Assembly (NCBI GenBank): GCA_020853525.1
Contig: JADYYS010000029.1
Span: forward strand, 1 to 64,000
Length of the DNA stretch: 64,000 bases
Direction of reading: 5' to 3'
Source of the DNA: Ardenticatenales bacterium
GTDB taxonomy: Bacteria; Chloroflexota; Anaerolineae; Epilineales; Epilineaceae
In this document: in pieces, positions 127 through 32,314 of the stretch
Layout of the letters: the number at the start of each line of letters is the position of its first letter
Position numbering within the stretch: position 1 is the stretch's first letter
Made by a program: the position numbers and the translations under genes
The notes under the pieces: generated by a model
Databases searched by the model: none
Told to the model about the DNA's origin: nothing
Seen by the model: the letters and a program-made list of their open reading frames with translations, nothing else

Positions 127-344
127 CTGCGCCCCTCTGGACACCCCGCATCGGAGTGTCCAGGCGCTGGAAGGACGGGGTGCCGCAGCCTGATGCGGTC
201 GGGCGGATCAAAGAGACATGCCCGGGTAGTGCCGCGTCTCTACCGTGATTTGTTGCCTCGTTCGACAGGTCCCTGGCATTGGCTCCAACATACGCGGCGA
301 CAAGAATCCCCGGCTTGATAAGAGTGAAACCTGGTGCGGGGGGT

Positions 345-397
345 CCAGGGGGGCGCCGCACCCCCTGGCCGGGGTGCAGGGGCCAGGCGGCCCCTGC
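345..397. repeat. Two adjacent GC-rich hairpins
   Basis: Two perfect inverted repeats sit side by side: an 8 bp stem (CCAGGGGG, 345-352 with 361-368) and a 9 bp stem (GCAGGGGCC, 376-384 with 389-397, loop AGGC). Neither is followed by a T-tract on either strand, so they are not classic terminators. They could end the ybeY transcript in a Rho-dependent way or belong to a dispersed repeat. The rest of 127-459 shows no gene I can support. A shorter palindrome, GGACACCCC with GGAGTGTCC, lies near 138-161. Confidence 0.5.
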
Positions 398-459
398 GAA
401 CAAAATGCACGAACCCAGCAGTCCCGAGCCCAACCATACCCACCCGCCGGCTCTGCACC

Positions 460-996
460 TCAGCTCACCTCACGGAACCCAGGTCCCACGTCCCCTTCAT
501 CCCCTTCAACCCGCACCCCCAACCGCACCTCCTCCGCCCGCATCCCCGCCGCCCCCGCCTCATCCGCATCGTCGTGCCCCAGCAAGTGCAGCAGCCCGTG
601 CACCGCCAGCAGCCGCAGCTCGTCGACGACCGGCGCACTTCGCGCGGCTGCGCTGCGGGCCGCATACGGCAACGAGATCACGATATCGCCGAGCTCCGTG
701 CCGTCGCCCGCATCACCCGCCCCGTCGTCGGCGTCCGCATCGACCGCGCCCCCACCCGGCCACCTGTCGGCGTCGCCGCCCGCCCGGAAGCTCAGCACAT
801 CCGTCGGCTTGTCGTACCCGCGGTACGCCAGATTCAGCCGATGCAGGTAGACATCGTCGGCAATCACGACGGCCACTTCGGCGTCGGCGGCGACAGCGAG
901 CCGATCCATCGCCCCGGCCACCGCATCGACCGCCGCATCCACCAGCGCCTCGTCCATGTCGACGAGCACGTGGAGATGGATCGCTCGCCCGCTCAC
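460..996 (-). CDS. ybeY: Endoribonuclease YbeY (rRNA maturation factor)
   Basis: YbeY is a zinc endoribonuclease for 16S rRNA 3'-end maturation and ribosome quality control. This 178-residue protein has the family's YDKPTDVLSF block (about 61-70), the LGDIVIS strand (about 102-108) and the signature HGLLHLLGHDD (133-143). The family consensus is HGxLHLxGYDH. The first two zinc histidines (H133, H137) are present, but the third ligand position is Asp143, with a His at 141 where Tyr is usual. An acidic Gly/Ala/Asp-rich insert of about 30 residues (73-102) lengthens the protein. The ATG overlaps the pgpH stop by 4 bases, so translation is probably coupled. Confidence 0.9.
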   Translation of the reverse strand: MSGRAIHLHVLVDMDEALVDAAVDAVAGAMDRLAVAADAEVAVVIADDVYLHRLNLAYRGYDKPTDVLSFRAGGDADRWPGGGAVDADADDGAGDAGDGTELGDIVISLPYAARSAAARSAPVVDELRLLAVHGLLHLLGHDDADEAGAAGMRAEEVRLGVRVEGDEGDVGPGFREVS

Positions 997-3188
997 GGCG
1001 ACGCCGCGCCGCCCGCCCCGCCCGCCCGGCTGCGCCGCCGCACGATCTCGCCGTCCACCGCCTTCGGGTAGCGGATCCGCGGGTGGTACATGCTCTTCAG
1101 CGTCGCCACGAAGCTGCTGGCGATCCGCTGGATGTCGCGCAGCGTCAGGTCGCAGTCGTCGAGCTCACCTTCGGAGAGGCGGCGGTCGACGATGCCTTGG
1201 ACGATCTGCTCGATCTCCTCGTCGGACTGCGGCGCGGCGGCGCGGACGCTGGCTTCGGCGCTGTCCGCCAGCATGACGAGGGCGATCTCACGGCTCTGCG
1301 GGCGTGGACCGGGGTAGCGGAAGGCGGCGTCGTCGACGCCGTCGATGCCGAGCTCGGCGACGGCTTGGCGGTAGAAGTACTCGACCCGCGTCGTGCCGTG
1401 GTGCTGCCAGATGAAGTCGATCACGCTGTCCGGCAGCCCGGCCAGCCGCGCCATCTCCGCGCCGGCCGTCACGTGCTCCACGATGATCCGCGCGCTGGCC
1501 GTCGGCTCGAGGTCGTCGTGCGGGTTCGTCGTGCCCGGCACCTGGTTCTCGACGAAGAAGTAGGGCCGCCGGACCTTGCCGATGTCATGGTAGTACGTCC
1601 CGACGCGGACCAGGATCGGGTCGGCGCCGATCAGGTCGGCCGCCCGCTCGGCGAGGTTCGACAGCACCACGGAGTGCTGGTAGGTCCCCGGCGCCTCCAT
1701 CTGCAGCCGGCGCAGGAGCGCGTTGTCCGGCCGCGCCAACTCCAGGAGCTGGAGCGGCGTCGCCAGCTGCAGCAGGATGCCGGCGGCGATGACGTTCAGC
1801 GCCGTCAGCGCGCTGGACAAGGTGGCATTGGCCACCGTCGCCCCGCCAAGCTCGACCACGCCCCGCAGGTCGATCGACGCGTCCGACAGTCGGAACAGGA
1901 TGAGCACGGCCACGTTGGCTGCCAGAACCGCCACCGTGGCCACGAGGAAGGACTTCACCTTCTCGGCCCGGCCGATGCTCACCGCGCCCGCGAGGCTGGC
2001 CACGGCCACGTAGAGCGCCACCTCGAGCGGGTCCCCCGTCGCGCCCGTCATGATCGCCACGACCGCCGCCATCAGGACGCCGGACAGGACGCCGGTTTCG
2101 ATACCGGCCACCACGGACAACGTCATCGCCACCGTCGCCGTGGGGAACGCCAGCGAGAGCACCCGCTGGCCGACGAAGAACCGCGCGCCGAGGGCGTACA
2201 CCAGGATGACGACGACCGCCACCAGGACGTGGCGCGGCCGGAGCAGCGCCTTCGGCGCGAGCCGCCACAGCGTGCCGGCCGTCGTCGCCACGAGCGTCAG
2301 GCTGCCGACGAAGAGCGCCAGCACATCGAGCCAGTTCGTCGCCTGTCCGACGACGCCGAGCGCCTGCAGCACCTCAAAGTCGTTTTCGTCGATGATCTCG
2401 CCCACGGCCATGATGCTCTCGCCGCGCGCGATCGCGACCTCGACCGGAGCGACCTCCTCGCGGGCCCGCGTCCGCGCCGCCGCGGTGGCGGCCTCGTCCA
2501 ACAGGCTGTTGGGCACCACGAATCGGCCGGCCAGGTCGGCGATGAGCTCGGCATTCGCCTGGCCGACCTCGCGTTTGACGTTGGCGATCGTGCTGCCGCG
2601 CGCGGCGGGGAGGCTGTCGGCGCGAACCGGCAGGCGAAGCGTGGCGTTGACCACCGCCGGCACCTCCGCCCGGACCTCGTCGAAGGCGACGTCGTCCAGC
2701 CCGAGCAACGTGTCGCCCAGATCGGACGGCCCGGCGCCCGGCACCTGCAGCTCGGGCACCGCCGCCAGCTCCAGGAGGGCGGCGGCGCGCGTGACGTCCG
2801 TCGCGACGCGCAGCGCGGCCACCCGGTCGAGAACGGCGCGCGCTCGGCCCACCTGGGCGGCGGTGATCGCCATGTCCTTGGGCTTGTAGACCGGCGCGAC
2901 GGCCGCCTCGGCATCGGCCCGCCGGCGCTCCGTCTGCAGCCGGCTGCTGAAGCGGAGGTCGCGGGACGCGAAGATGGCACGCGGGCTCGGGCCACCGGCG
3001 ATCAGGCCCGTTTCGGCCACCGCGAGCGGCAGGGCCAGCACGGCCGTCAAGCCGGTGACGAGCGCAACGCCGAGCGCGAGGACGAAGCGGCGCGGGCGAC
3101 GCTTCACCCATGCGCGAAGCCGCGCCGCCGACTCGGCCAGGCCGGGACGGAGCGCGAAGTGCGCCGGGGACGGGGCGGTCGGGTGCAT
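993..3188 (-). CDS. pgpH: 7TM-HD family phosphohydrolase (PgpH-type c-di-AMP phosphodiesterase)
   Basis: This 731-residue membrane protein matches the YqfF/PgpH family, which degrades cyclic di-AMP. An N-terminal hydrophobic segment (about 36-56) is followed by an extracytoplasmic region, a block of roughly seven membrane helices (about 290-490) and a C-terminal HD domain. Visible HD features are the TYQHSV helix, YYHDIGK (near 528-534) with the metal-binding HD pair, and IWQHHGT further on. The neighbours yqeY and ybeY match the yqeY-(phoH)-yqfF-ybeY order known from Firmicutes; phoH itself is not between them here. Substrate is inferred from the family only. Confidence 0.88.
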   Translation of the reverse strand: MHPTAPSPAHFALRPGLAESAARLRAWVKRRPRRFVLALGVALVTGLTAVLALPLAVAETGLIAGGPSPRAIFASRDLRFSSRLQTERRRADAEAAVAPVYKPKDMAITAAQVGRARAVLDRVAALRVATDVTRAAALLELAAVPELQVPGAGPSDLGDTLLGLDDVAFDEVRAEVPAVVNATLRLPVRADSLPAARGSTIANVKREVGQANAELIADLAGRFVVPNSLLDEAATAAARTRAREEVAPVEVAIARGESIMAVGEIIDENDFEVLQALGVVGQATNWLDVLALFVGSLTLVATTAGTLWRLAPKALLRPRHVLVAVVVILVYALGARFFVGQRVLSLAFPTATVAMTLSVVAGIETGVLSGVLMAAVVAIMTGATGDPLEVALYVAVASLAGAVSIGRAEKVKSFLVATVAVLAANVAVLILFRLSDASIDLRGVVELGGATVANATLSSALTALNVIAAGILLQLATPLQLLELARPDNALLRRLQMEAPGTYQHSVVLSNLAERAADLIGADPILVRVGTYYHDIGKVRRPYFFVENQVPGTTNPHDDLEPTASARIIVEHVTAGAEMARLAGLPDSVIDFIWQHHGTTRVEYFYRQAVAELGIDGVDDAAFRYPGPRPQSREIALVMLADSAEASVRAAAPQSDEEIEQIVQGIVDRRLSEGELDDCDLTLRDIQRIASSFVATLKSMYHPRIRYPKAVDGEIVRRRSRAGGAGGAASP

Positions 3189-3221
3189 GGTTGGGGGCGC
3201 GAGGGGCGTGCGCCGGCCGGG

Positions 3222-3668
3222 CTAGCCGGCCAACAGCTGCCGAACGATCTCGTTGACCCGGCGTCCGTCGGCGCGGCCCTGCAACGCCTTCATCAGCGGG
3301 CCCATGAACTTGGCGATGTCGGCAGCCGTCGTCGCACCGGCGGCGGCGATGTGCTCGCGGGCGATGGCCTCGATGTCCGCATCGCTCAGCTGGGTCGGCA
3401 GGTAGCTCTCGATGATCGTCAACTCGGCCGACTCGGACGCCGCGAGGTCGCTCCTGCCCCCCTGCTCGAACAGCGCGATGCTGTCGCGGCGTTGCTTGGC
3501 CTGAGCTTGGAGCACGCGCAGCACGCCGTCGTCGTCCAGCGGGCGGCGCGCCTCGATCTCGGCGTTCTTGATGGCGGCACGGAGCAGCCGCAGCGTGTTG
3601 CGGCGCACCTCGTCTCCGGCACGCATTGCGGTCATGTAGTCTTCGTTCAGGCGCTCTGCAAGGGCCAT
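3222..3668 (-). CDS. yqeY: GatB/YqeY family protein
   Basis: This is a 148-residue protein of the usual YqeY length, homologous to the tRNA-binding tail of GatB. It shows the helical RRNTLRLLRAAIKNAEIE block near residues 21-39 and the LPTQLSDADIEAIAREHI segment near 90-107, ending in a KALQGRADGRRVNEIVRQLL helix typical of the family. The precise role is unknown; it is often found beside rpsU or dnaG. GGAG lies 9 bases before the ATG. It sits between the M23 hydrolase and pgpH on the same strand with small gaps. Confidence 0.9.
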   Translation of the reverse strand: MALAERLNEDYMTAMRAGDEVRRNTLRLLRAAIKNAEIEARRPLDDDGVLRVLQAQAKQRRDSIALFEQGGRSDLAASESAELTIIESYLPTQLSDADIEAIAREHIAAAGATTAADIAKFMGPLMKALQGRADGRRVNEIVRQLLAG

Positions 3669-3701
3669 GTCAATGCACTCCGAAGGCCGTGCGTCGGGCC
3701 A

Positions 3702-4886
3702 CTAATAACAGGCGCCGAGGCTGCATGGGTTGACGTGCTGGCCGTTGAACATCACCTCGAGATGCAGATGCGGTCCGGTGCAACGACCGCCGCGGCCACG
3801 CGTGCAGCCGATCGTGCCGATGATCTGACCGCGCTGCACCTGCTGGCCCTGGCTCACGGCAATGGAGTTCATGTGCGCGTACAACGAGACGTAGCCGTTG
3901 CCATGGTCGATGAACACGGCGTTGCCCGCCCACGACCACCAGCCGGCCAACGTCACGGTGCCGCTGTCGATCCCGTAGATCGGCGTGCCGGTGCGGTTCG
4001 CGAGATCGGCGGCCCAGTGGCCGCGATGGTAGCCGTTCGTCATCCGCCCGAAGGCGGCGATGTGGAACGACCCGGTGCCCTGCAACGACCCGGGCGGCGC
4101 CGAGGCCCAGCCGGCCGATGCCGTCTCGTCCATCTGCGCCTGCTGGAAGTACGACGGAACCTCGATCTCCATCTGGCCGCCCGGCACGACGACGCGGCTG
4201 CCGGCGACAACGGCATCGCCCGCACGGAGCGCATTGCCGTCGAAGGCGAGGATGGCGTCCGGACCCACTTTGTAAGTCTCGGCGATCGAATCGATCGTAT
4301 CGCCCTCCTTGGCCACGTGCACGACGCCGTCGAACGGGAGCACCGTCAGCTCGGTGCCGATCGGCACGTTGTGCGGGTCCTTGCGGATGTCGGGGTTGAA
4401 GAGGAGGAGGCGCACGATGTCGATGCCGAACGCCGCAGCGATACCGGAGATCGTCTCGCCGTTCTGGAGGACGTGCGTCTGGGTGGTGTCCCACGGCAGC
4501 AAGTTGGGATCGGCCTCGGCGACGACGCCCGGGGCCATGAAGCCGAATTCGGATGCCTCGACACGGGCGGGCGCGCTCGAAGTCGTGACGGTATCCGGCA
4601 TGAAGCCGGGCGTGATCCACCACTGTCGCGCCTCGTCGCCGATGCGGGATGCCCAGCCGACCTCACCGGCCCCGGCTTGCGGCAGGACCTCCGCGGCGCT
4701 GGCCGCCACCTGCGACCACCGGCTCGAGACGAAGATACCGGTGGACAGCACGAGGACCGCGAAGTGGGACACCATCCGCCAGCGGGTCGGGGCGTCGACG
4801 CGCATGAGCCGCATGCTGGCGCGCCAGCGGCGGCGGAGCTGATGGGCTGTGTCGTGCGCGCGCGTTCGAAGTCGGGTCATCCACAT
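3702..4886 (-). CDS. LysM-domain M23 metallopeptidase (cell-wall hydrolase)
   Basis: From the chosen start the protein has about 394 residues: a basic N-terminus, a membrane-spanning signal anchor (HFAVLVLSTGIFVSSRW), two LysM modules (HVLQNGETISGIAAAFGI and HVAKEGDTIDSIAETYKV) that bind glycan strands, and a C-terminal M23 domain. The lysostaphin-type zinc motifs are present: HWAAD (H-x3-D) and PHLHLE (HxH). It should cleave peptide cross-links in the wall, or act as an activator. The reading frame is open further upstream to 5078, but ATG 4886 or 4880 gives a sensible N-terminus; neither has a strong ribosome site. A promoter lies at 5156-5184. Confidence 0.87.
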   Translation of the reverse strand: MWMTRLRTRAHDTAHQLRRRWRASMRLMRVDAPTRWRMVSHFAVLVLSTGIFVSSRWSQVAASAAEVLPQAGAGEVGWASRIGDEARQWWITPGFMPDTVTTSSAPARVEASEFGFMAPGVVAEADPNLLPWDTTQTHVLQNGETISGIAAAFGIDIVRLLLFNPDIRKDPHNVPIGTELTVLPFDGVVHVAKEGDTIDSIAETYKVGPDAILAFDGNALRAGDAVVAGSRVVVPGGQMEIEVPSYFQQAQMDETASAGWASAPPGSLQGTGSFHIAAFGRMTNGYHRGHWAADLANRTGTPIYGIDSGTVTLAGWWSWAGNAVFIDHGNGYVSLYAHMNSIAVSQGQQVQRGQIIGTIGCTRGRGGRCTGPHLHLEVMFNGQHVNPCSLGACY

Positions 4887-5148
4887 ACCTGGCGTACTGC
4901 GCTGGCCGGTAGGCACGTCCGCGCGCCCGTCGCCCGCGGCCGCTTCGGCGGCGGCTCGGCGTCGGCCATCTTGCAGATCCGCTAACAAAGGTCTTCTCGC
5001 TGTGCATGCCCAAGGGCGCGCAACCGGGGAGCGATGACGAGAACGGCGCGGGCCGAAGGGAGGAACCGGCGCAATCAAACACCGCGGCGCCGTGCCGACC
5101 GAAGTCCGGTCGTGGAAGCGATCGGCAGCTCGTTGGCAGCGACCGACC

Positions 5149-24997: not shown

Positions 24998-25046
24998 GGA
25001 GAAGCGACAGCGTGACCCCAGATCGGGGACCCGTTGTCGCTTCTCC
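24998..25046 (-). promoter_or_regulatory. Hairpin in the leader of the subtilase gene
   Basis: GGAGAAGCGACA (24998-25009) and TGTCGCTTCTCC (25035-25046) form a perfect 12 bp stem, with a nested CCCC/GGGG pairing inside the loop. It ends 40 bases before the subtilase ATG. It has no T-tract and could stabilise or attenuate the transcript. Confidence 0.5.
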
Positions 25047-25080
25047 TGCGGATGGCTGGAAAGGGTGGCGGCGGGCTCGC

Positions 25081-25149
25081 ACCCTGCCAATGGACACGCT
25101 CGGGGCGGCCACCTGCGTACGGAACCCGGAGATTCTGCAGTGGCAGGGT
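25081..25149 (-). repeat. 9 bp inverted repeat directly after the pnp stop
   Basis: ACCCTGCCA (25081-25089) and TGGCAGGGT (25141-25149) are perfect inverted copies 51 bases apart, the second starting next to the pnp stop codon. The RNA could fold into a domain at the pnp 3' end or in the subtilase leader. I do not recognise it as a known riboswitch. Confidence 0.4.
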
Positions 25150-25150
25150 A

Positions 25151-27547
25151 CTAGTTGCTGCGGCCCGGGCCATCGTATCGCGGACGATCGCCGCCGCGAT
25201 CCCCGCCGCCCCCGCCGTAGCGCGGGCGGTCGCCGCCGCGATCCCCGCCGCGGTCACCGTAACCGCCGCCGCGCGGCGGGCCGCCTCGACCGCCGCCGCC
25301 GCCACGGCTGCCGCCGCCCGCATCGTTCGCCCGAGCCTCCTCGAGCGTCCAGCCCTCGATGACCGCGCGCCGCGAGAGGCGCACCTTGCCGTCGGCGATG
25401 TCCGTGACCATCACGGTGACCTCGTCGCCCAGCTGTACTTCGTCGGCCACCGTCGCCACACGCTCGTTGGAGAGCTGCGAGATGTGGACCATCCCGTCGA
25501 CGCCCGGCATGAGCTCCACGAAGCAGCCGAAGTCCGTGATCCGGTTCACCGAACCGGTGTAGACCGCCCCGAGCTGCGGCCCGGCCGTCAGCCCCTCGAT
25601 GATCCCGCGCGCCTTCTCGGCCGCCGCGCCGTCCGTCGAGGCCACGTACACCGTGCCGTCGTTCTGGATGTCCACCTTGACGCCGGTCTGTTCCTCGATC
25701 ATCCGGACGTTCTTACCGCCCGGCCCGATGAGCTTGCCGATCGAGTCGGCCGGGATCTTGAGGGTCATGATCCGCGGCGCGTACTGCGACATCTCGGACC
25801 GCGGCGCGGGCAGCGTGTCCGTCATGAGGCCGAGGATGAGGAGGCGTGCCTCGCGGGCCTGCGCCAGCGCCTGGGTCAGCACCGCGTCCGGGATCCCGCC
25901 GATCTTGATGTCCATCTGCAGCGCCGTGATCCCGGCGGCCGTGCCCGCGACCTTGAAGTCCATGTCGCCCAGATGGTCTTCCATACCCTGGATGTCCGTC
26001 AGGACGACGTGCCGCCCGGCACCCGGATCGCTGATCAAGCCCATCGCGATGCCGGCGACGGGCGCCTTGATCGGCACGCCGGCGTCCATCAGGGCCAGGG
26101 TCGAGGCGCAGATCGACGCCTGCGACGTCGAGCCGTTGGACGCCAGGCACTCGCTGACGACGCGGATCGTGTACGGGAACACGTCGTCGGCGGGCAGAAC
26201 ATACTTCAGCGCCGTCTCGACGAGCGCGCCGTGCCCGATCTCGCGCCGGCGCGGGCCGCGCATGGGCCATGTCTCGCCGGTCGAGAACGGCGGGAAGTTG
26301 TAGTGGTGCATCCAGCGCTTGAGCGTCTCGGGCCGCAGCGAGTCCAGCTTCTGGCCCTCGCCGACCGTGCCGAGCGTCGCCAGCGACATGACCTGGGTCT
26401 CGCCGCGCTGGAACAACGCCGAGCCGTGCGTCCGCGGCACGAGCCCGACCTCGGCGCTCAGGCCGCGGATCTCACGCGGGCGCCGGCCGTCGGGGCGAAT
26501 GCCCTCGGCCAGGATCCGTTCGCGCACGGCCGCGGCGGTCACGTGCTTGGCGACGGCCTTGATGTGCTTGAGCATGTAGGGCTTGCCGTCGGCGCCCAGT
26601 TTGGCCGGCGGCGCGCCGTCTTCGCCCGGCAGGTACGCCGCCTGCCACTTCGCCAGCACCTCGTCGATGCGGGCATTGCGTTCGTCCTTGAGCAGGCCGG
26701 CGTCGGCGACGATCACGTCGAGGGCGGCGCGACAGCCGGCCTGCGCGTCCGACTCGAGCGCCTCGGGCGGCGCATCGATATGAACGTCGACCTTGGGCTT
26801 GCCGACCTCGGCGCGCATCCGGTTCTGCAGCTCGAACAACGGCTGGATGGCGACGTGGCCGGCGCGGATCGCGTCGAGCATCGTCGCCTCGTCCACTTCG
26901 GCCGCGCCGCACTCGACCATCAGGATGGCGCCGGCGGTGGCGGCCAGGCGGAGATCGAGCGTGCTCGTCTCCATCTCCGCGGTCGTCGGGTTCATGACGA
27001 ACGCGCCGTCGACCATGCCGACGCGGACGCCCGCGATCGGCTCAGGGAAGGGCACGTCGCTGACCATCAGCGCTGCGGACGCGGCGTTCATGGCCGGGAT
27101 GTCCAGGTAGTGCACGCCGTCGCTCGAAAGCGAAGAGGTGATGATCTGGACGTCGTTGCGCATGCCCTCGGGGAACAGCGGGCGGAGCGGGCGATCGATC
27201 AGCCGGGCGGTAAGGATTGCGGTCTCGCTCGGGCGACCTTCGCGCTTGAAGAACGAGCCCGGGATCCGGCCGGCGGCATACATCTTCTCGTCGAACTCGA
27301 CCGAGAGCGGCATGAAGTCGATGTCGCGCACGCCCTTGCTCGTCGTGGCCGTCGCCAGGACGATCGAATCGCCGAGCTGGCACGTGACGGCGCCGCCGGC
27401 CAGGAGTGCCAGCTTGCCCGTGCGGAACGTGAACGTCTTGCCGCCGACATCGCACGTGTAGACGCGCTCCTGGGACTCGATGCGACGGAGGACGGGAGCT
27501 GGGCCGGCGAGATCGTCCGGCGACATGGGGAGACGGGGTTCAGACAT
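25151..27547 (-). CDS. pnp: Polyribonucleotide nucleotidyltransferase (PNPase)
   Basis: PNPase is a trimeric phosphorolytic 3'-5' exoribonuclease central to mRNA decay. The 798-residue protein has two RNase PH domains (FFKREGRPSETAIL in the first; TRTHGSALFQRGETQ and MDFKVAGTAAGITALQMD in the second), a KH domain (KLIGPGGKNVRMIEEQTG) and an S1 domain (GSVNRITDFGCFVEL, GMVHISQL). The last 55 residues are an unusual Gly/Arg/Asp repeat tail with RGG, DRGGDR and RYGGGGG elements. Gene order rpsO-pnp is conserved. A long stem-loop lies in its leader. Confidence 0.95.
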   Translation of the reverse strand: MSEPRLPMSPDDLAGPAPVLRRIESQERVYTCDVGGKTFTFRTGKLALLAGGAVTCQLGDSIVLATATTSKGVRDIDFMPLSVEFDEKMYAAGRIPGSFFKREGRPSETAILTARLIDRPLRPLFPEGMRNDVQIITSSLSSDGVHYLDIPAMNAASAALMVSDVPFPEPIAGVRVGMVDGAFVMNPTTAEMETSTLDLRLAATAGAILMVECGAAEVDEATMLDAIRAGHVAIQPLFELQNRMRAEVGKPKVDVHIDAPPEALESDAQAGCRAALDVIVADAGLLKDERNARIDEVLAKWQAAYLPGEDGAPPAKLGADGKPYMLKHIKAVAKHVTAAAVRERILAEGIRPDGRRPREIRGLSAEVGLVPRTHGSALFQRGETQVMSLATLGTVGEGQKLDSLRPETLKRWMHHYNFPPFSTGETWPMRGPRRREIGHGALVETALKYVLPADDVFPYTIRVVSECLASNGSTSQASICASTLALMDAGVPIKAPVAGIAMGLISDPGAGRHVVLTDIQGMEDHLGDMDFKVAGTAAGITALQMDIKIGGIPDAVLTQALAQAREARLLILGLMTDTLPAPRSEMSQYAPRIMTLKIPADSIGKLIGPGGKNVRMIEEQTGVKVDIQNDGTVYVASTDGAAAEKARGIIEGLTAGPQLGAVYTGSVNRITDFGCFVELMPGVDGMVHISQLSNERVATVADEVQLGDEVTVMVTDIADGKVRLSRRAVIEGWTLEEARANDAGGGSRGGGGGRGGPPRGGGYGDRGGDRGGDRPRYGGGGGDRGGDRPRYDGPGRSN

Positions 27548-27571
27548 CGTTCGGGATTCCTTCCCAATGAC

Positions 27572-27669
27572 CGAGGGCGCCCGGGATCAGGAGCTGGGGG
27601 CTGCCCCGTCCGACGCCGGCGGAGCGGCGGGCGGAGCAGCCCCCAAGTCCTGAACGCGTGACGCCCTCG
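27572..27669 (-). promoter_or_regulatory. Long imperfect stem-loop in the pnp leader
   Basis: Three nested inverted repeats line up in order: CGAGGGCG (27572-27579) with CGCCCTCG (27662-27669), TCAGGA (27587-27592) with TCCTGA (27648-27653), and GGGGGCTGC (27596-27604) with GCAGCCCCC (27636-27644). Together they give about 23 paired bases just upstream of pnp. In E. coli, pnp is autoregulated through RNase III cutting of a leader stem, and this could be an analogous site. The rest of 27670-27784 holds a possible rpsO-end hairpin (CCGCACCCC with GGGTGTTGCGG) and no gene. Confidence 0.55.
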
Positions 27670-29302: not shown

Positions 29303-30537
29303 GGGGCAACCTCTCGGTTCAGCGAATGCGGCGATCCGGGACGATCGAACGGGATCGGCGCGACGATGTCGGGCGACCACGATTCGAGCGCGGCGCGGAC
29401 GAGGGCGACCATGCCCGCCAGATCGTGCTTGGACACGAGCGCCTGCGGCCCATGCAGGTAGCGGCACGGCGCCGAAACGACGGCCGTCGGCACGCCCCGG
29501 CGCGCCAGGTGGATCTTGCCGCCGTCCGTGCCGCCGCCCTTGGGCGCCCGGATCTGATGGCGGATGGCGGCACTTTCGGCGGCGGCGACGAGATGGCGGA
29601 CGAGCCGCGGATCGGCGACCATCGAGCTGTCCATGACGGTGACCGCCGGCCCGTCGCCGACGCGCATGACCGGCGTGTCGTCGCGGTCCTTGGGCGTGTC
29701 GTCCGTCGTGCCGCACTCCAGGACGAACGCGGCGGACGGGGCGAGGCGATGTGCGGCCGGGCCGGCGCCGCGCGTGCCGGCCTCTTCCTGCACCGAGAAC
29801 ACGCCGACGATGTCCATTGGATAGCGCGAGCGAAGAAGCATCGCCAGCGCCCAGCAGCCCGCTCGATCGTCCATCGCCTTGCCGAGGAGCGTCGGGCCGA
29901 GATCGACGGTTGCGGTGTCCCAGACCGCGCCATCCCCCGGCTGCACCAGCGCCAGCGCCGCGTCGCGCGTCGTCACGCCGAGGTCGATCCGCAGCTCCTC
30001 CAGCGCCGGCAAGCGTGCGCGCACCGCATCGGTCGTCGCGTGTGCCGGCGGCAGCCCGACGACGCCGACAACGCCGTCCGCACCGATCCGCACGCGCTGG
30101 CCGACGACCGCCGCGCCGAGCACGCCGCCGACCGCGGCCAGCCGCGCCATGCCGTCGCCGTCGACGTCGACGACCATCAGGCCGACCTCGTCGAGGTGGG
30201 CGCAGACCATGAGCGGCGGCACTGCGGGTTCGGATGATCGGGCGGCGGGCGAACCCGGCTCGTTCGCACCGGCGTCGGGTCCACCGACGCCGCGCCGAAC
30301 CGTGGTCGCGACCGCCGCGACGCGCTCGCCGCGCTTGCGCGCGTACAGGTTCCCGATCGCATCCGTCCAGAGCTCGTCGACGTGCGGTGCGACGGCGGCC
30401 GCGACGATGTCACGCACACGGCCCTCGTCGCCGCTGACGCCGCGCGCGTCGGACAGCGCGGCCAGCAACGCCCAGTCGAGCCCGTCGCCACCGTACGGCA
30501 GGGCCGACTCGACGTCGTTGACGTTGCGTCCGCTCAC
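29299..30537 (-). CDS. M42-family metallo-aminopeptidase (paralogue 2, intact)
   Basis: This 412-residue paralogue retains the active-site residues: CAHLDEVG, KAMDDRAG, the Glu pair in VQEEAGTRGA, the Glu ligand in LECGTTDD, and the His in RYLHGPQAL. KGGGTDGGKIHL is also typical. It starts with GTG 30537, preceded by GGGAGAG, and the start overlaps the stop of paralogue 3 by 4 bases. A variable Pro/Ala/Ser-rich loop lies near 95-112. It is likely a subunit of the same or a mixed TET-type complex with its neighbours. Confidence 0.9.
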   Translation of the reverse strand: MSGRNVNDVESALPYGGDGLDWALLAALSDARGVSGDEGRVRDIVAAAVAPHVDELWTDAIGNLYARKRGERVAAVATTVRRGVGGPDAGANEPGSPAARSSEPAVPPLMVCAHLDEVGLMVVDVDGDGMARLAAVGGVLGAAVVGQRVRIGADGVVGVVGLPPAHATTDAVRARLPALEELRIDLGVTTRDAALALVQPGDGAVWDTATVDLGPTLLGKAMDDRAGCWALAMLLRSRYPMDIVGVFSVQEEAGTRGAGPAAHRLAPSAAFVLECGTTDDTPKDRDDTPVMRVGDGPAVTVMDSSMVADPRLVRHLVAAAESAAIRHQIRAPKGGGTDGGKIHLARRGVPTAVVSAPCRYLHGPQALVSKHDLAGMVALVRAALESWSPDIVAPIPFDRPGSPHSLNREVAP

Positions 30538-31727
30538 GACGTGACTCTCCCTGCCGCCCGGTCGTCGGCTGCCGTGGAGCCGACCGCGATCAGCGCCGGC
30601 TGCAGCGCGGCGACGATCTCGCCATCCAACCCGGCAGCGAACGCTGCGACGAGGCGCGCCAGCCGCGACACGTCGACCTCGGCCACGGTCTCGACCGCGG
30701 TTCCCCCGTATCGTGCAGGCAGTTGGACGACGGCGCATGCGATCCCGGCGCCCGCCACCTGCAGCACGCTCGCTGCGGTCCGGGTCATGCCAGGCGCGGC
30801 CTCCAACTGGTGGGGGATCTCATGCCGCTTCGCTGCGCCGACGAGCGCTTGCTGCACCCGCGGATGGACGTTCGGCCCGCGCACGATCGTAGGCCCGGCG
30901 CCGAGCGCGATCGTCGAGTCGACGCCCCGCTGGCCGGCGCTCGCCGCACCGAGCACGACCGCGACGGTGCGCGCCGCGTCCGTGGAGTCGGCAGCCAGTG
31001 ACGCGCCGAACGCGGCGGCGCCGCGGTGCCCGAACGCACCCTGCGCGGCGCCCGCCAGGACGATGTCGCACGGATGCGGCGTCTCCGCCAGGCGCCGCGC
31101 GATCTCGACGAGCGCAGCCAGGAGCGATCCGCCGGCCGCGGCCTTGCCGGTCAGGCGCCCGCCCGCCATCCGCTCCGGCGGGCGCCGGAGCGTCACGGCA
31201 TCGCCGATCGCCACCGCCGCCCGCACGTCCGCCTCGCCCAGGCCGACGTCGACGAAGAGCGCGTCGATGTCCGGCGTCACGTCGCGCACCGCCGCCTCGA
31301 GCACGTGCGGCGGCCGCGTGCCGATGGCGCCCGCGAGCGGACGGCGGCCGTGAACGGTCACCGGCTGACCGAGCCACGCACGGACGTCGACGCCCGCCGC
31401 CGGGCCGATCGGGCGAAAGCGCAGGAACCCGCCGGGATCGATTCGGGCGACGATCATGCTCGGCTCGTCGAGCGGGGCGACGATGAGCAGGCGCGGGGCA
31501 GCGACGACATCGGGGCCGAAGGCGGTGGTGACACCCGCTCCGGTCGCGTTCCCGATCCGCGCACGGCGGTGGGCGATGACGTTGCCCAAAGCGTCTCTCT
31601 CGACGCGGTCGACGAACGGGGCGAGGGCAGCCGACAAGGCGTCCGCAACGACCCCTTCGGCGCCTGTCGGGCCGTCGAGGGCGGCGAAGCGGATGCTGTC
31701 GACGGACAGGTCGCCGGCTGCGGTCAT
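30534..31727 (-). CDS. Degenerate M42 paralogue (probable pseudo-peptidase subunit)
   Basis: This 397-residue protein aligns end to end with paralogues 1 and 2 (DALGNVIAH, VDVGLGEADVRAA, RMAGGRLTGKAAAGGSL, FGHRGAAAFG, YGGTAVETV), but every catalytic feature is replaced. AHxDE has become APLDE, the bridging Asp segment reads GKAAAG, the QEE pair reads QGA, the Asp/Glu ligand segment reads VLGAAS, and the RYxH histidine is Gly. The frame is open and uninterrupted with neighbour-like codon use, so it is a maintained inactive protein rather than a decaying gene. It overlaps the genes on both sides by 4 bases. Confidence 0.82.
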   Translation of the reverse strand: MTAAGDLSVDSIRFAALDGPTGAEGVVADALSAALAPFVDRVERDALGNVIAHRRARIGNATGAGVTTAFGPDVVAAPRLLIVAPLDEPSMIVARIDPGGFLRFRPIGPAAGVDVRAWLGQPVTVHGRRPLAGAIGTRPPHVLEAAVRDVTPDIDALFVDVGLGEADVRAAVAIGDAVTLRRPPERMAGGRLTGKAAAGGSLLAALVEIARRLAETPHPCDIVLAGAAQGAFGHRGAAAFGASLAADSTDAARTVAVVLGAASAGQRGVDSTIALGAGPTIVRGPNVHPRVQQALVGAAKRHEIPHQLEAAPGMTRTAASVLQVAGAGIACAVVQLPARYGGTAVETVAEVDVSRLARLVAAFAAGLDGEIVAALQPALIAVGSTAADDRAAGRVTS

Positions 31728-32314
31728 GCCGGGTTCGCCGCGCCGGGGTCCAAGGGGGCGGGAACGCCGCTCGTCGGTTCGGCCGTCGGGTCGACCGGGG
31801 CGGACGTCGGCTCGGGCGGCGATGTCGGGGCCGATGTCGGGGCATCCGTCGGGGCGACCGTCGGCGGCGCGTCCGTCGGGGGCGGCGACGTGGCCGTCTC
31901 GACGGCCGCGACGGTCGGCGCCGGCGTGGGCGCGTCCGTCGGCGGCGGCGTGGCGGAGGGCGCGAACGGGGTGGCGACGGGCGTGTCCGAGGGCGCAGCC
32001 GGGGGCAGGACGGGACCGGACGTGATCGTGGCCCGCCGGACGACGGTCGGGACGACCGGGGCGTCCTCGTCGGCGTCGGTCGGCGGCGGTGCGTCCGTCG
32101 CCGTCGGGACGCCGTCGACCTCGCTGGCGGCGACCGTCGGCGTCGCGCCGTCTGCCGCAGGACCGCCGGGCACGGGCGGCGCGGACATGAGGTACACGGC
32201 ACCGCCGACGCCGTAGCACGGGAGCGTGAGCAGGATGATGCCCAGCAGCGCGGCGCTGAGGCGGCGGCGGTTGGGGGGCTGGGCGTCCAGCCAATCGCCA
32301 AAGGCGTCGAACAC
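31724..32314 (-). CDS. Single-pass membrane protein with Pro/Thr-rich exported region
   Basis: I do not recognise this 196-residue protein. A short basic N-terminus (DAQPPNRRR) precedes one membrane helix (about 21-43, LLGIILLTLPCYGVGGAVYL). The remainder is low-complexity Pro/Thr/Ala/Asp sequence with repeated PPPTDAP and PTSAP units, like a surface stalk. It is the first gene of the M42 operon, and its stop overlaps the M42 paralogue 3 start (ATGA). The start codon is GTG. No enzymatic domain is visible. Confidence 0.7.
   Translation of the reverse strand: MFDAFGDWLDAQPPNRRRLSAALLGIILLTLPCYGVGGAVYLMSAPPVPGGPAADGATPTVAASEVDGVPTATDAPPPTDADEDAPVVPTVVRRATITSGPVLPPAAPSDTPVATPFAPSATPPPTDAPTPAPTVAAVETATSPPPTDAPPTVAPTDAPTSAPTSPPEPTSAPVDPTAEPTSGVPAPLDPGAANPA

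Follow-up and report, generated by a model that had tools for sequence, protein, structure and literature searches.

Self-compartmentalised peptidases can include non-catalytic paralogues, as ClpR does in ClpP complexes and some beta subunits do in the proteasome, and work on M42/TET peptidases has dealt almost exclusively with homo-dodecamers in which every subunit is active. M42 chains dimerise via a PDZ-like domain, and the dimers build a tetrahedral particle (PMC4745047, PMC4220976). In PfTET3, the Gln and Arg flanking the Glu pair form inter-subunit hydrogen bonds, and the M1 metal stabilises the oligomer interface, such that metal removal dissociates the particle; M42 proteins that lack metal should form assemblies smaller than the dodecamer (PMC4745047). 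Mixed particles have been reconstituted in vitro from PhTET2 and PhTET3 of Pyrococcus horikoshii (PMC4220976), in line with the archaeal precedent invoked by a preliminary description of the locus reported here, and YtoP-YsdC heteromers have been cross-linked inside B. subtilis cells (PMC10090944; model 9a5r). MPP alpha is a pseudo-subunit of a dimeric peptidase, and the pseudometallopeptidase review that covers it does not mention M42 (PMC11266112). The literature we searched yielded no description of an inactive M42 subunit, an absence that does not prove that none exists.

The window, by which we mean the whole stretch of 64,000 nucleotides that was analysed, carries on its minus strand four genes in the order P0004 (32314-31724), P0001 (31727-30534), P0002 (30537-29299) and P0003 (29302-28127), each overlapping the next:

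31724-32314, minus strand: P0004, a small protein with a single N-terminal transmembrane segment, an LPCYGVG motif and a Pro/Thr-rich tail; 4-nt overlap with P0001
30534-31727, minus strand: P0001, a predicted catalytically dead M42 subunit of clade a (TM1048-like), 397 aa
29299-30537, minus strand: P0002, an intact M42 subunit of clade b (TM1049/YsdC-like), 412 aa, GTG start; 4-nt overlap with P0001
28127-29302, minus strand: P0003, an intact M42 subunit of clade c (TM1050/TmPep1050-like), 391 aa, ATG start; 4-nt overlap with P0002

P0001, P0002 and P0003 all match the Pfam profile of the M42 family, and P0001 scores 139.6 bits against a cut-off of 23.2 for PF05343, which makes it a member of the family by descent. 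By best match, Thermotoga maritima TM1048-TM1049-TM1050 (PDB 1vho, 2fvg, 3isx/4p6y) represents the same three M42 groups in the same order, with 1vho, which we take to be TM1048, closest to a, TM1049 (2fvg) to b and TM1050 (3isx/4p6y) to c. The window thus holds three adjacent M42 orthologues in the fixed order of a TM1048-1050 type triad, and differs from the Thermotoga locus in that its TM1048-like member appears to be catalytically dead.

P0001 starts with ATG and has an intact frame, and in the alignment it lacks all six of His68, Asp182, Glu212, Glu213, Asp235 and His323 (PhTET2 numbering), which sets it apart from active M42 aminopeptidases. Among these residues, His68 binds M2, His323 binds M1, Asp182 bridges the two metals and Glu212 is the general base (PMC8993905). 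The replacements map as follows:

31473-31475, minus strand: codon of P0001 residue 85, where His68 (M2 ligand) is replaced by Pro (APLDE)
31134-31136, minus strand: codon of P0001 residue 198, where the bridging Asp182 is replaced by Ala (KAMDDR to KAAAGG)
31035-31040, minus strand: codons of P0001 residues 230-231, where Glu212 (general base) and Glu213 (M1 ligand) are replaced by Gly-Ala (QEE to QGA)
30945-30962, minus strand: codons of P0001 residues 256-261, where the metal ligand Asp235 is lost (AIDVTF to VVLGAA)
30702-30704, minus strand: codon of P0001 residue 342, where His323 (M1 ligand) is replaced by Gly (RYxH to RYGG)

Because these six residues are lost, P0001 is not expected to bind two metals or to activate water. 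The losses are not due to chance or assembly noise, since all six residues are kept in every other complete orthologue of type a, about 130 in number; the Glu-Glu pair is present in 78/78 other a sequences. Gln229 and Arg235, which flank the former Glu pair, are retained. An AlphaFold2 model of P0001 displays a complete M42 fold (pLDDT 88, pTM 0.88), in which a predicted PDZ-like dimerisation domain interrupts the catalytic domain, and a Foldseek comparison of the model with TET/M42 structures gave target-normalised TM-scores of about 0.85-0.90, the closest being TET aminopeptidases.

The preliminary description had correctly placed the dead gene at 30534-31727 with an intact frame, but had called it the third paralogue, whereas on its own strand it is the first of the three. 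Its statement that all catalytic residues are gone is accurate for the six ligand and general-base residues and does not extend to the second-sphere Asp70 of AHxDE, which survives as Asp87. The complete active sites that it ascribed to the other two paralogues are indeed found in P0002 and P0003, except that P0002 carries Glu in place of Asp235, a conservative signature of clade b, and the 4-base overlaps that it reported among the M42 genes are joined by that of the upstream gene at 31724-32314 with the dead gene (ATGA/GTGA/ATGA along the series).

The M42 triad a-b-c is ancient. Its gene order is the same in about 30 related genomes, the named ones being Anaerolineae (Chloroflexota), and recurs in Clostridia, Frackibacter, Alicyclobacillus and others, across several phyla. 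A tree of 102 sequences recovered groups a, b and c (SH-aLRT 96 for b) and placed P0001 within group a, where its terminal branch, at 2.1 changes per site, is the longest in the tree. All a orthologues read from the window's order and class, including that of G002, a genome of the same family, keep the full catalytic set; since even this same-family orthologue is intact, the comparison indicates that the loss of the active site in P0001 is private to the window's lineage among the genomes examined. That the window's group might have inherited a dead a from early on as a conserved feature was also considered, and is ruled out by the order- and class-level orthologues, found all active. A scan of genome contigs with P0001 alone returned no closer relative. 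In G001, of the same family as the window, a single M42 gene was found whose best match lies outside the triad groups, so the triad has either been lost there or lies outside the 84% complete assembly. In the window's own order, Glu213 is replaced singly by Lys in the c gene of G003 (L064:5254-6246) and by Gly in the b gene of G005 (L081:3720-4742), replacements that may mark the same process at its beginning or may reflect errors of assembly.

Triads holding a dead subunit are widespread, and such subunits occur independently in Firmicutes. A scan of genome contigs with the b alignment, for which 80 named loci were fetched and in which more than 40 held two or more triad genes, returned a dead c in two loci, those of Alicyclobacillus fastidiosus and Clostridium hydrogenum. 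In the genus of A. fastidiosus, the a-b-c triad is present in 15/15 genomes examined, with overlaps of 10 nt (a/b) and 4 nt (b/c), and its c lacks Glu212, His323 and, nearly always, Glu213. Throughout the order of Alicyclobacillus, c is damaged (51/51) and these sequences group together in the tree with an SH-aLRT of 100; in the Clostridiaceae, c is damaged in 43/49, with losses ranging from Glu212 alone to nearly all ligands, and the tree requires more than one change inside the family. Over 59 regions from the Alicyclobacillus order and the Clostridiaceae, a is intact in 55/56 (the remaining one is truncated), b in 47/58 and c in 0/59, and damage to b accompanies that to c in 11 Clostridiaceae. 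The window triad is the reverse of these cases, with a dead and b and c intact.

Synonymous and non-synonymous changes (NG86) show that selection on the dead c genes is purifying, if somewhat relaxed, because dN/dS lies well below 1: over 20 unsaturated pairs from the order of Alicyclobacillus, the median is 0.072 for a, 0.053 for b and 0.178 (range 0.078-0.216) for dead c, and close clostridial pairs give 0.10-0.21 for damaged b and 0.05-0.14 for damaged c. Like P0001, dead c retains the Gln (93/100) and the Arg (89/100) that flank the lost Glu pair. Only a is intact in the Clostridiaceae loci L307, L308, L310, L312-L314 and L318, where close pairs give a dN/dS of about 0.13-0.21 for damaged b. 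Three Clostridiaceae genomes (L336, L337 and L338; G126, G235 and G195) carry an orphan c, without a or b and with a distantly related M42 alongside, and the one read for residues (G235) is dead (HDDQKDN). These three genomes rule out the generalisation that dead-clade c never occurs without a and b.

We think it reasonably probable that P0001 is a pseudo-enzyme subunit of a hetero-oligomeric, TET-like peptidase, in which we infer that it co-assembles with P0002 and P0003 and has a structural or guiding role. An ancestral a-b-c M42 operon, translationally coupled through overlapping start and stop codons, would encode three related aminopeptidase chains that assemble together through contacts of the PDZ-like dimerisation domain and of the QEExGxR interface loop. 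Subunit a of the window lineage, having lost the general base along with the two metal sites, would have become a non-catalytic building block that positions active b and c in the particle and that may also shape the chamber or guide peptides; a metal-free chain would need hetero contacts to stay in place, or the assembly would be smaller than a dodecamer. A mixed particle, with one chain providing structure and the others catalysis, fits the overlapping genes, the retained interfaces and the retained dimerisation domains, and M42 particles with non-catalytic subunits are suggested by the Firmicutes, where a dead member has been kept under selection in whole groups. Against a pseudo-subunit, the M1 site stabilises known TETs, so a metal-free chain may not enter a dodecamer; c occurs without a or b in the three Clostridiaceae genomes; and a dead a is common to no relative examined, the open frame being weak evidence at 72% GC.

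The earlier proposal of a maintained inactive subunit in a hetero-oligomer was therefore right in kind and is partly supported: the conserved triad, the active-site-confined losses, the preserved PDZ-like domain and the dead c and b of Firmicutes favour it, whereas no relative examined shares the dead state of P0001. Its expectation that the inactive copy would be conserved as a set with dN/dS below 1 fails for the window gene and is borne out only by the independent Firmicutes cases, so that the evidence that decides in its favour is drawn from a different subunit in other lineages. On a broader reading, bacterial M42 triads would be hetero-oligomeric peptidases from which catalysis has repeatedly been lost in one or two of three subunits, with at least one remaining active, and would thus contain overlooked pseudo-TET subunits; we regard the case for this as evenly poised. 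The repeated losses on that reading would be those of a in this Chloroflexota lineage, of c in the Alicyclobacillus order and the Clostridiaceae and of b too in some Clostridiaceae.

It is unlikely, in our judgement, that P0001 and the Firmicutes dead c are instead autonomous, acting as homodimers or homomers that bind peptides or another partner (as sink, sensor or adaptor) outside a b-c particle. A dimerisation domain preserved alongside a diverging catalytic domain would suit such proteins, as would the smaller size expected of M42 proteins without metal (PMC4745047) and the three genomes with c but neither a nor b, one of them read and found dead. In nearly all other genomes, however, the dead subunit directly adjoins b and often overlaps it, the interface Gln and Arg are kept, and mixed complexes of M42 paralogues are documented in archaea and Bacillus.

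We give still less credence to decay, on which P0001 would be a young pseudogene of a single lineage whose frame has stayed open through high GC and polar coupling to b and c. That the dead state is common to no relative examined and that P0001 has the longest branch in the tree are compatible with decay, and the open frame, which we considered as proof of selection on P0001, is ruled out as such by simulation: at the base composition of the window, neutral decay by substitutions only, with no indels, left the frame free of stops in 12-30% of runs for 0.2 changes per site and in 4-20% for 0.3. Very long spurious antisense open frames run across the window (for example, 279-4985 and 25034-27661, both on the plus strand), a product of its GC content of about 72%, and an open frame is correspondingly a poor sign of a gene in this DNA. 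Against decay, the losses are unevenly placed. Over columns at least 85% conserved among the other a sequences, P0001 keeps 6 and loses 13 in the active-site motifs and keeps 28 and loses 4 outside them (Fisher p=1e-4). Aligned with the orthologue from G002, it is 53% identical in the PDZ-like domain and 34% in the C-terminal catalytic part, compared with 59% and 55% for a pair of active orthologues. The PDZ-like dimerisation domain thus evolves almost normally, and losses cluster in the active-site motifs. Codon-position GC (0.80/0.57/0.88) matches that of the active P0002 and P0003, which excludes long decay only, P0001 has no frameshift, and purifying selection acts on parallel dead subunits elsewhere. 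Since the losses cluster in the active site, the PDZ-like domain is near-normal and the fold is predicted confidently, we infer that selection on P0001 itself is likely. That the old site has been re-purposed for a different, metal-independent catalytic or ligand-binding activity is highly improbable, for although the high divergence is confined to the catalytic domain, the single sequence offers no new conserved residue set and its replacements are mostly Gly and Ala.

As a candidate pseudo-subunit of a mixed M42 peptidase, P0001 can be set beside several known systems. PhTET2-PhTET3 heterododecamers resemble the proposed particle in that two M42 paralogues co-assemble in a TET, but both of their subunits are active and the mixed particles studied were reconstituted in vitro. 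YtoP and YsdC are bacterial M42 paralogues that form heteromers in the cell, and differ in that their genes lie apart and that no inactive partner has been reported there. ClpR, the non-catalytic proteasome beta subunits and MPP alpha follow the same logic, a dead paralogue partnering active ones, with folds unrelated to M42. A conserved dead subunit in an operon common to Chloroflexota, Clostridia, the Alicyclobacillus order and others would imply that the physiological particle is mixed, with a division of labour, and that numerous genes with an M42 aminopeptidase annotation do not encode enzymes; cultured carriers of such operons, Alicyclobacillus and Clostridium, make direct tests possible.

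The surroundings of the triad add two minor observations. Downstream of the M42 genes, at 27547-25151, lies what we take from its sequence to be a polynucleotide phosphorylase. In many further loci of Anaerolineae (L089, L096, L097, L105, L116 and L139 among them), the gene immediately upstream of a encodes a protein of the P0004 type, with a PCYC or PFYC motif, and a P0004-like protein is a possible membrane anchor of the peptidase.
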